A model generated the notes under the pieces. It ran no database searches and was not told the DNA's origin. It was given only the letters and a program-made list of their open reading frames with translations. The translations under genes and the position numbers were made by a program. A stretch of 43,313 bases of DNA from Thermoguttaceae bacterium (GTDB lineage Bacteria; Planctomycetota; Planctomycetia; Pirellulales; Thermoguttaceae), in assembly GCA_025062105.1 (NCBI GenBank), contig JANXAQ010000022.1, positions 1-43,313 of the forward strand, given 5' to 3'. The stretch's first letter is position 1. Every line of letters starts with the position of its first letter. Below are positions 5,419 through 8,449 of the stretch, piece after piece.

Positions 5419-5897
5419 AAATAGCGGTCGGCAGTGATCATCGGGGCTTTGAAATCCGCGGCAAAATCATCCAGCTGCTTCAGCGCCTGGGCCATGAGGT
5501 GGAAGATCACGGCTGTTTTAGCCCCGCACCGTGCGATTATCCCGATATTGCCGCTCGGGTTGCTTCGCGCATCAGCCGAGGTGAGGTGGATCGTGGCATC
5601 CTGATCTGCGGAACAGGAATAGGAATGTGTATCGCTGCAAATAAATTTCCTGGTGTACGTGCTGCCCCCTGTCATGATGATTTCACCGCCGAAATGAGCC
5701 GTCGGCATAACGACAGTAATATTCTCTGCCTGTCCGCCGACCTGCTGGGCGAACGGCTGATCGACCGGATGATCGAAATCTGGCTGAACACGCCCTTTGA
5801 CGGAGGCCGACACGCCCGCCGAATCCAGAAAATCCTCCAACTCGAACAAAACCAGATCCATCGGCCTTGCCCGGAACAACCAAAACCAAGCGAATAA
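5415..5897 (+). CDS. rpiB: Ribose-5-phosphate isomerase B
   Basis: The protein has 160 residues and interconverts ribose-5-phosphate and ribulose-5-phosphate in the non-oxidative pentose phosphate pathway. The RpiB/LacAB signature is clear: MKIAVGSDHRGFEIR at the start, the catalytic-cysteine loop ICGTGIGM (Cys65, Thr67), and RHNDSNIL around His98. A GGAGGT ends about 10 bases before the ATG, inside the upstream gene. The ATG overlaps that gene's stop, which suggests translational coupling. Length matches the family, with a short polar tail. LacA/LacB-type galactose-6-phosphate isomerases share the fold, but a single stand-alone copy favours RpiB. Confidence 0.93.
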   Translation: MKIAVGSDHRGFEIRGKIIQLLQRLGHEVEDHGCFSPAPCDYPDIAARVASRISRGEVDRGILICGTGIGMCIAANKFPGVRAAPCHDDFTAEMSRRHNDSNILCLSADLLGERLIDRMIEIWLNTPFDGGRHARRIQKILQLEQNQIHRPCPEQPKPSE

Positions 5898-6009
5898 GCC
5901 ATGAACAGCCAGCCGCCTGTCCCTTTACCTACCGCCCTCTAGGCTTTGAAAACCCCTGCATCAGGCAATGGGGATATTTTTATACCATTCAAGCTACCTC
6001 CTCTCTAAG

Positions 6010-6157
6010 CTCGACTTTTGCCATTTTTAGCTTCTTCCTGGAGGAGAAAAGTTTTAACTTCTTGTAACTATTGGACTTAGGAAATTGGGTGGACAAAAGG
6101 AGCTTTCGCCGTAACTCCTGGAAGCAAAAGCAGTTAGAAACAATGGCAAAAGTCGAG
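6010..6157. mobile_element. Family A MITE-like element with 5-bp target duplication CTAAG
   Basis: Ends CTCGACTTTTGCCA and TGGCAAAAGTCGAG. Flanks are CTAAG at 6005-6009 and CTAAG at 6158-6162, a perfect direct repeat. First member of a four-element chain. Confidence 0.9.
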
Positions 6158-6162
6158 CTAAG

Positions 6163-6316
6163 AGGTTGTCTGAAAAAGGAGGTAACCGACCTCCCCTTTC
6201 CAACGGCCGGTGAAGGCTCTGGGGAGCCAATGGACTCCAATCCTGGGTTGTAGTTCCTCCTAGTAGTGGAAACAACTTGACAGCTAAGTGAGCCAATCTC
6301 TCTTTTCAGACAGTCT
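6163..6316. mobile_element. Family B-like element with unrelated interior (B')
   Basis: Ends AGGTTGTCTGAAAA and TTTTCAGACAGTCT match family B ends with conservative changes, and the length (154 bp) fits. The interior lacks the family B words and reads as different sequence. Flanked by perfect CTAAG on both sides (6158-6162 and 6317-6321). Confidence 0.8.
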
Positions 6317-6321
6317 CTAAG

Positions 6322-6456
6322 CTCGACTGTTGCCATTTGGGCCGCTTGTTGAAAGAAAAAAACCTAACTTTCTGGATTGCTGGAGTTAGGACGTTCTGTG
6401 GACGAAAGGAAAGTCGCCCTAACTCCTGAACTAAAAAGAAGTTAGGAAAGGTCAAC
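6322..6456. mobile_element. Family A element with a small deletion in its right end
   Basis: Starts CTCGACTGTTGCCA. The right end reads AGGAAAGGTCAAC and lacks the GGCAAAA expected there, giving 135 bp instead of 148. Left flank CTAAG, right flank CTAAC. Confidence 0.8.
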
Positions 6457-6461
6457 CTAAC

Positions 6462-6615
6462 AGGCTGCCTGACATCGGCATTTGACCGGTTTCCCATAGC
6501 TTTTGGCCGACCGACCCTACCCTCCAGCCTCCTTAAAAACAGAGATTTTGAAGATCCTGGGAAATTGAGAAATGAAACCTCCTTTCATCATAGAAAATAC
6601 TTTTTAGCACAACCT
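6462..6615. mobile_element. Family B element with 5-bp target duplication CTAAC
   Basis: Begins AGGCTGCCTGACATCGG and ends TTTTTAGCACAACCT. Flanks are CTAAC at 6457-6461 and CTAAC at 6616-6620. The interior TTTTGGCCGACCG and CTCCTTTCATCAT words are present. Confidence 0.85.
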
Positions 6616-6696
6616 CTAACCCACTTTATGAGGTTCCCAGGATGACTAGCAGGCAACAGCCAATCGGTGTTCGGCCAGCAGAAATACATTACTAGA

Positions 6697-6882
6697 AGAA
6701 GCTCTGCATAATTCATACAGGATATTTTTATACCATTTGGTGATCCTCTGCCTTACAACATATCGGGATGCTCGCATTTGGTAGCACCCAAGGATAGTAG
6801 ACGTGCAAAGTAGGCCAACCCCACGGCGAGAAAATCAAAACTCCACAAAGTTCTCTACCTATTCCGGATTTTCCAAAGTTCC
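6697..6882. mobile_element. Family C MITE-like element (degenerate)
   Basis: Runs from GAAGCTCTGCATAATTC to TTTTCCAAAGTTCC. The interior shares TAGCACCCAAGGATAGTAG and the order of blocks with the 684 copy. Confidence 0.65.
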
Positions 6883-6976: not shown

Positions 6977-8449
6977 CTATTGGAAGATCATACCGGCATA
7001 GCCGACCACGCGTCGGCTGTCTCGGCCCAGTTCGGCCTCGGCACTGGTAGCATAGGCTACAAGCTGGGCCGATTGCAATAGCCCGAGCCGACGCAGCGTC
7101 TCCAGCACCAACACGGCCGGTCGCATCCCGCACATGGCGATGTGGTTTTCTACACAGGTCCGATACAAACGTTCTGTATCCTTGGCTTCCAAAGCATCCA
7201 GAGCAAGGCGATCCAAGCGCCGTGTCTGAGCATCGCCAGCCAGTTCTTCATGGTGCATGTCACTGGAGATGATCAGCAGCGGGAGTTCCGGCAGGCTTTG
7301 GAGGAAGCGGGCCAACTGGTCAGCAAACTGCCGAAGCTCCGCCCATTTGCCGCCCAAAATCGCTACCCCAACCACCCGCATCTGGGGAGCTAGACGGGCT
7401 AAGAAGGGTAACAGCACTTCAATGGCATGTTCATACTGATGGCTGGTAGGATCCAGTTGCCAACCGTCGATAGCCTCGGCCAACTGGCCTGCCAGTTGCC
7501 GATCCGAAGCCACCCCTCCGCCGGGCAAAATCCAGATGTCATGTGGGGCCACGGCCCAACGAGCCAAACCTGGGGTATGGGCCGGACAAAACACAATGGC
7601 CCGCTCCGGAAAATCCACCTGCCGCAGGACCGTTCCAGCCACTCGGCCACTAAACATCCAACCGGCATGGGGCACCAAAATCGCTGAACACCGTTTCGGC
7701 TCGGCAGGCGGCCCAGCCAATAAGACGTCCAATTCCCGCTGGATTTCCGCCGGACTGGCCGGATAAAATCGCCCCGCCTGCACCGGATGGCGAACCGAAA
7801 GCGGAAACGGCCCAGAAATCGCATATCCCTCAAACCGAAGCACCGTGGTCTGAGGCTCCTTCCAGGCATCCGGCGGCAGATGGGCTTTCAGACAGGTTTG
7901 TTCCAGAAATTGCTGGGCGTCCAGATGGTGTTCCACGGCTACACTTGGCAAAAGCAATCCCCGGGCTTCGCCCCGGATGACTTGCAGGCCATGCCGACCG
8001 ATCTCAAAACCTCGGCACCGCTCCTCCCCTTGACCAGCTACAGGTTCCAAATTCCATAGTAACCAAACATCCATGTGCAAGCGATCGAGCTCCTCCGGTT
8101 CGATCGGTGGGAATCGGGGATCATCTTTGGCGGCCCGATGGGCTGCCTGTTGAACCGCTTCGGCCAGCAGACAATCCCCACCCAAATACCCGCAGCAAGA
8201 GCGCAATTGTTTGGCACGTTTCAGGCTGACAAAGGAACCAAAGACCGGTTTGCCGGCAATTTCGGGCAGCCGATCGGCCAACGGCGGCATCGGCCAACCA
8301 CAAACCGAAGCCGCCACCTGCCAGGCGGCCGCCTCAAACAACGCCTGCTTTTCGGCTTCCGATAACTCCGGACGTTCCGGTACGATCGGCTGCCAGCCGG
8401 TCGGTTCCTCTGACCCTCTACCCAACCTATCTTCCCTCGAAGCCCCCAT
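6977..8449 (-). CDS. AMMECR1-MEMO fusion, AmmeMemoRadiSam system proteins A and B
   Basis: The protein has 490 residues, starting at ATG 8449 with TAGGAGG 7 bases upstream. Residues about 28-210 are an AMMECR1 domain (FGSFVSLKRAKQLRSCCGYL; later RFPPIEPEELDRLHMDVWLL). Residues about 220-490 are a MEMO domain (VRHPVQAGRFYPASPAEI, LVPHAGWMFSGRVAG, HQYEHAIEVLLPFL, IISSDMHHE). MEMO is related to class III extradiol dioxygenases; its conserved His residues are present. The two domains occur as one polypeptide or as neighbours with a radical SAM enzyme in the AmmeMemoRadiSam set, whose biochemical product is not established. That partner lies upstream on the same strand at 9235-10344, but 785 bp of mostly repeat DNA now separates them. 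Confidence 0.9.
   Translation of the reverse strand: MGASREDRLGRGSEEPTGWQPIVPERPELSEAEKQALFEAAAWQVAASVCGWPMPPLADRLPEIAGKPVFGSFVSLKRAKQLRSCCGYLGGDCLLAEAVQQAAHRAAKDDPRFPPIEPEELDRLHMDVWLLWNLEPVAGQGEERCRGFEIGRHGLQVIRGEARGLLLPSVAVEHHLDAQQFLEQTCLKAHLPPDAWKEPQTTVLRFEGYAISGPFPLSVRHPVQAGRFYPASPAEIQRELDVLLAGPPAEPKRCSAILVPHAGWMFSGRVAGTVLRQVDFPERAIVFCPAHTPGLARWAVAPHDIWILPGGGVASDRQLAGQLAEAIDGWQLDPTSHQYEHAIEVLLPFLARLAPQMRVVGVAILGGKWAELRQFADQLARFLQSLPELPLLIISSDMHHEELAGDAQTRRLDRLALDALEAKDTERLYRTCVENHIAMCGMRPAVLVLETLRRLGLLQSAQLVAYATSAEAELGRDSRRVVGYAGMIFQ

Follow-up and report, generated by a model that had tools for sequence, protein, structure and literature searches.

A MITE Family That Probably Inserts at the Boundaries of a Second MITE Family in a Planctomycete Genome

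Introduction

IS4321 and IS5075, which are of the IS1111/IS110 type, target the terminal repeats of Tn21-family transposons, as cited in two reports (PMC11187229, PMC5001619). ISPsy8, ISPpu9, ISRm22 and others insert into REP sequences (PMC1525189). In Streptococcus pneumoniae, the MITE RUP was proposed to prefer insertion sequences (ISs), and BOX, RUP and SPRITE cluster and nest (PMC3049150). As a behaviour, end-targeting is already known from IS4321/IS5075 in Tn21 ends and from ISs in REPs. Target site duplications of IS701 are 4 bp (PMC2266710). Those of ISGka1/2 are 4–9 bp, versus 4 or 5 bp in other members of the IS701 family (PMC8024623).

Here, two MITE families of one planctomycete genome, A and X, are compared with these systems. 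A, a putative IS701-type MITE, probably inserts preferentially at the boundaries of existing X elements, with chains of elements growing as a result.

Structure of the Chain

The window is the whole stretch of DNA that was analysed, 43,313 bp in length. It corresponds to an entire contig (C5) of a 6.07-Mb planctomycete genome in 345 contigs. A protein encoded in the window has its nearest named relatives in Planctomycetota/Thermoguttaceae MAGs (80–81%).

An earlier note on this DNA had described a chain of four elements with 5-bp copies at the junctions. Direct reading of positions 6005–6620 agrees with it to the base: CTAAG-A1-CTAAG-B'-CTAAG-A2-CTAAC-B2-CTAAC. B', B2 and their relatives are called X here. 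The coordinates of B' and B2 below include the terminal bases; without these bases, the two elements correspond to 6163–6316 and 6462–6615.

6005–6009: outer CTAAG copy, from the 5-bp duplication of A1 (direct reading and duplication length of A)
6010–6157, plus strand: A1, 148-bp MITE with the TIR CTCGACTTTTGCCATT, of the putative IS701-type family (reading and copy comparison)
6158–6162: A1/B' junction CTAAG, in which a genomic C is followed by the TAA that B' duplicated and, at 6162, by the terminal G of that element
6162–6317, plus strand: B', X-type MITE, putatively IS5-like, GAGGTTGTCTGAAAA...TTTTCAGACAGTCTC, terminal G and C included
6159–6161 and 6318–6320: TAA duplicated around B'
6317–6321: B'/A2 junction CTAAG (direct reading)
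6322–6456, plus strand: A2, an older A copy, 135 bp, in the same orientation as A1, internally shortened near its right end
6457–6461: A2/B2 junction CTAAC, in which 6461, expected to be the terminal G of B2, is now C
6461–6616, plus strand: B2, X-type MITE of a subfamily other than that of B', terminal bases included
6458–6460 and 6617–6619: TAA duplicated around B2
6616–6620: right edge of the chain, CTAAC, composed of the terminal C of B2, TAA and a genomic C

The neighbouring genes of the chain are an rpiB-like gene (named from its sequence), which ends at 5897, and a Memo/AMMECR1 gene (6977–8449, minus strand). A 39-bp direct repeat with the core GGATATTTTTATACCATT flanks the chain at 5951–5989 and 6699–6737. 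It resembles the interior of a third family, E, and the two repeats are possibly E fragments. A second A-X-A chain, more degenerate than the first, is seen in the window from 1439 to about 1905, with the junctions CTTAA, CTAGG, CTTAG and TTAAG.

An empty site corresponding to the chain was sought in relatives. The rpiB-like gene is present in L161, L162, G001 and G002, but its downstream neighbour differs, so that none of them offers a direct empty site. In 24 relatives, no match to B' was found, and A was represented by diverged or rare relatives only.

Element Families

The counts cover 2.09 Mb, about a third of the MAG. The contigs were partly selected for carrying A or B' copies, so that densities are inflated; the results on spacing, order and paired sites should not arise from this selection. 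By TIR patterns with up to 4 mismatches, 631 copies of A (148 bp) are seen. The TIR of X is GAGGCTGTC[CT][GT][AG]AAA, its end carries AGGCTGTC, and its length is about 155 bp; 307 paired copies were found. X is composed of several subfamilies whose interiors are little alike. The TIR families of A and X are unrelated to each other. Paired A and X copies occupy 6.6% of this partly selected 2.09 Mb (92.8 and 45.8 kb).

Two other abundant families were used as controls. E is about 189 bp and has GGAACCTCTGCA and a 4-bp TWWA duplication; the first 1.6 Mb contains at least 207 of its copies, each about 190 bp long. W is about 113 bp, with GGCTCTGTTGAAA and a 9-bp duplication; we take its ends to resemble those of IS903. 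The MITE load is very high for a bacterium. The contigs C328 and C325 (L024, L025) end within A copies; the repeats thus seem to break the assembly, and chains may be under-counted.

Candidate Autonomous Partners

The IS701 partner of A was reached by way of a second, related genus (G020), where an IS701-like ORF is found 28 bp inward of an A-type end that has CTAAG as its flank. In the contig C130, a 542-codon open frame is located between A-type ends 1611 bp apart, of which the first 19 bp are identical to A. From its likely start, the frame scores as an IS701 transposase with NF049999.1 (252 bits against the curated cut-off of 170). This copy is without a matching duplication (CTTAG and CTAAA), and its transposase has partial relatives only elsewhere in the genome. 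Based on the ends common to this copy with an intact transposase, and on the duplication of about 4–5 bp, A can be classified as a MITE of an IS701-family element. The C130 copy may be the source of the activity of A.

Decayed IS5-type copies carry the X-like ends GAGCGTGTTTGAAAA and CTNAG flanks, and pieces of their ORFs match the IS5 model NF033580. In L191, L192 and L195, the ends are similar but not identical to those of X. All X-type partner copies found are decayed. X could be considered as an IS5-like MITE, with a TNA duplication and G...C ends, and we take it to belong to the IS1031-like subgroup of the IS5 family. Pairs of A or X ends 0.7–2.2 kb apart in the sample enclose ORFs that look like host genes, with no transposase among the ORFs listed.

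An apparently intact IS5-family element is present at 667–2247 of L187 (contig C56), with a 343-codon frame and the ends GGAACCTCTGAA. This element is likely the mover of E MITEs.

Duplication Lengths and Empty Sites

The 5-bp target duplication that the earlier note assigned to all elements of the chain is valid for A only. B-type elements duplicate TNA (3 bp), which is accompanied by their own terminal G or C. The flanks of A, for which the note had proposed a check against chance, match far above shuffled pairs: at the TIR boundary, 132 of 521 copies have matching 5-bp flanks, against 24 upon shuffling. The association is seen at all five positions, the outermost included. The correlation at the outer two positions excludes that A duplicates only 3 bp (TNA), in which case A and B would be of one kind. 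Duplications of 6–8 bp are a real minority (7 bp: 14 versus 0.08). Of two small A-like elements in another genus, one has CTAAC on both sides and the other CTAAG.

X duplicates TNA and ends in G...C. The G adjoining TNA is conserved about as well as the TIR bases (159/184), and therefore belongs to X.

Reconstructed empty sites mostly give 5 bp for A (41/68) and 3 bp for X (38/46). Some of the matches are nearby copies of A itself, and these sites thus lend support without being decisive. The clearest example is an A within another A: once joined, its flanks show 99% identity over 100 bp with a copy that is not interrupted.

The duplications of A next to X are almost exclusively 5 bp (76 of 80 scorable cases). 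Away from recognised elements, about a third of scorable A copies have 6–8 bp. There, A favours the target YTWAR, with A or G just beyond.

Spacing of A and X

In the 2.09 Mb, a spacing of exactly 5 bp between facing A and X ends occurs 231 times, while spacings of 15–60 bp hold about 1.4 cases per bin. This is far beyond chance, against which the earlier note had suggested counting chains. Like-like facing ends at 5 bp are rare in the same sequence (18 for A-A and 4 for X-X). The 5-mer at A-X junctions is mostly CTAAG or CTTAG. Chains of three and four elements occur elsewhere in the sample, consistent with the earlier claim that insertions share the junction duplications, leave a usable target and let chains grow.

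A and X might merely like CTNAG, with few tolerated sites, so that earlier duplications are reused at random. CTNAG is indeed favoured by both families, and chains do reuse duplications. However, proportional mixing in the first 1.6 Mb predicts about 88 A-X, 89 A-A and 22 X-X junctions, against 180, 15 and 4 observed with stricter end patterns. Besides, the CTNAG flanks of A lead to a further A in only 17 of 377 cases. Such neutral reuse is quite unlikely.

E edges also attract A, but loosely: 55 cases at spacings of 4–8 bp, with duplications of 5–7 bp (L124–L240). No spacing peak was found for E-X pairs. Since A peaks with X and with E while E and X do not peak with each other, A is the common partner.

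The earlier note had itself considered that A-B-A could be one long element. That A-B or A-B-A moves as a single unit could be thought from the recurrence of the A-X-A arrangement, whose two A copies tend to the same orientation (12 versus 4, p 0.08). Yet the left end of A adjoins X in 78 cases and the right end in 72, so the orientation of A relative to X is random. The X partners come from several dissimilar subfamilies. A alone, which has clean empty sites, and X alone have separate empty sites and their own duplication lengths. Neither a fixed orientation nor a shared outer duplication is seen, and a composite unit is extremely improbable. A-A tandems are also more often direct (10 versus 4).

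Order of Insertion

A unit of one A and one X can be written as t0-A-t1-X-t2, where t0, t1 and t2 are the 5-bp junctions. In the units with one shared TNA, the last base of each junction is informative. If X was inserted into the duplication of A, t0 and t2 should have the same last base, and t1 should end in the G of X. If A was inserted into the edge of X, t0 and t1 should both end in the G of X, and t2 should be free. Among the informative units, the pattern G, G, non-G is seen 16 times and the opposite pattern never (p = 3e-5). The last base of t0 is G in 63 of 67 of the units with one shared TNA, against 123 of 286 A copies without A or X at 5 bp. The duplication of A thus copies the terminal G of X, which indicates that A came after X. 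A was the second to arrive in essentially all A-X units with one shared TNA.

The earlier note had proposed that the two families use the same target in concert. The targets overlap. A symmetric concert is not what is seen: the duplications are 5 and 3 bp, like-like junctions are rare, and A follows X.

Preference for X Edges

Among CTNAG sites abutting an X end, A is present at 98 of 259 (38%). Of the CTNAG sites that lie up to 80 bp from an element without adjoining X, A is present at 6 of 393 (1.5%), and of the far sites, at 19 of 4612 (0.4%). CTNAG flanks 73 X copies on either side, and 55 of these copies have at least one A. A is inserted at a fixed position relative to the end of another element, far above chance.

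It could be supposed that X marks harmless places, where a nearby A survives selection better. The elements are mostly intergenic, by crude gene calls. The nearby non-abutting sites, however, are a control independent of gene calls, and the odds ratio for the X edges against them is 39. Their low occupancy rules out such a safe harbour as the main cause, and we consider this explanation very improbable.

As A favours YTWAR followed by A or G, the sequence at the edge of X (CTNAG|AGG) is similar to a target that suits A. This resemblance explains only about a threefold effect (p 0.06), leaving roughly a tenfold preference beyond it. CTNAG followed by AGG, but without the remainder of an X end, is occupied by A at only 4 of 111 sites. 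With 0, 1, 2 and 3 mismatches in the X TIR, the occupancy by A is 0.55, 0.48, 0.46 and 0.34, respectively, although the identity of the sites also becomes less certain with decay.

A Possible Mechanism

The spacing, the duplication lengths, the order, the edge preference and the independent orientation are established by statistics on the sequence; from these we infer what attracts A to X ends. X enters (C)TNA(G) and duplicates TNA, and as it ends in G...C, every X edge reads CTNAG and then AGG. Such an edge resembles the preferred 5-bp YTWAR of A with the favoured A just beyond. A would then enter the edge, and its 5-bp duplication, including the terminal base of X, would generate CTNAG-A-CTNAG-X. 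The edge would be rebuilt with a fresh CTNAG farther out, where a further X or A may follow, and chains would lengthen one element at a time. The A transposase would read the sequence of the X edge itself and not an intermediate of X transposition. It can be speculated, tentatively, that this transposase acquired in evolution the ability to recognise specifically how another transposon family ends in sequence, in which case X edges would be a landing pad regenerated with each insertion.

Alternatively, A may be caught at X edges during X transposition or repair, at nicked or gapped duplications, with finished edges not recognised. The duplication of A coincides with the TNA of X plus one base on each side, and the near absence of 6–8 bp duplications at A-X, compared with A elsewhere, would fit this as well. 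Against it, A has perfect transposon ends, and its duplication takes in the terminal base of X, beyond the X gap. A also inserts at isolated YTWAR sites and, less tightly spaced, at the edges of E. Finally, A1, A2 and their chain neighbours differ widely in divergence. Capture is unlikely, and insertion of A at finished X edges is the reading followed below.

The history of the chain in the window could be reconstructed with a single substitution. B2 would have been inserted first, into (C)TAA(C), and A2 next, at the left edge of B2, copying CTAAG. B' would have entered TAA on the left, earlier or later than A2, and A1 would have come last, at the left edge of B'. The terminal G of B2 would later have changed to C, resulting in CTAAC between A2 and B2. 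This history fits the identities to the nearest copies: 98% for A1, 90% for B', 83% for B2 and 81% for A2, the last being 76% identical to A1. Judging from the sequences, A1 is the youngest element of the chain. At least one X, B', must have entered beside an existing X or A, and so the order of insertion is not strictly one-way at every step.

In the open-licence literature searched, no account was found of a DDE-type MITE inserting with base precision at the edge of a second family of MITEs and copying the terminal base of that family, and none of tandem or nested bacterial MITEs with a common duplication. For small DDE insertion sequences, target choice is commonly summarised as a preference for a few bases. 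The hundreds of natural insertions in this genome place a DDE-type MITE on the boundary of another element with single-base precision and a readable order of events. If the proposed reading is true, two MITE families form a self-renewing association that makes up several percent of the DNA read. Should the enzyme read the X end, it would offer a compact and testable example of long target specificity in a DDE transposase, and would explain how bacterial MITE clusters can grow without hitting genes.

Comparison with Known Systems

The IS701 family is similar to A in the partner transposase and in the size of the duplication, which is 5 bp and sometimes 6–8 bp in A. The preference for the edge of another element belongs to A; no such targeting is described for the family in the literature compared. 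The TNA-target group of the IS5 family corresponds to X in the TNA duplication, in the matches to NF033580 and in the partner ends flanked by CTNAG.

REP-targeting ISs are comparable in that small repeats dispersed in the genome serve another element as hot spots. A REP is a short palindrome and is hit in its interior, whereas A is inserted where the end of a transposon meets the duplication. For RUP and BOX, the available part of the source reports no edge insertion at a fixed spacing, shared duplications or insertion order, unlike the case of A and X.

IS4321 and IS5075 are like A in that their point of insertion is fixed with respect to the end of another element, in which it lies. They depend on DEDD enzymes with RNA-guided targets, whereas A, a MITE of the DDE type, has TIRs and duplicates 5 bp. 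The terminal repeats, the 5-bp duplication and the IS701-type partner exclude A from IS1111/IS110, and it is only the behaviour that is alike.
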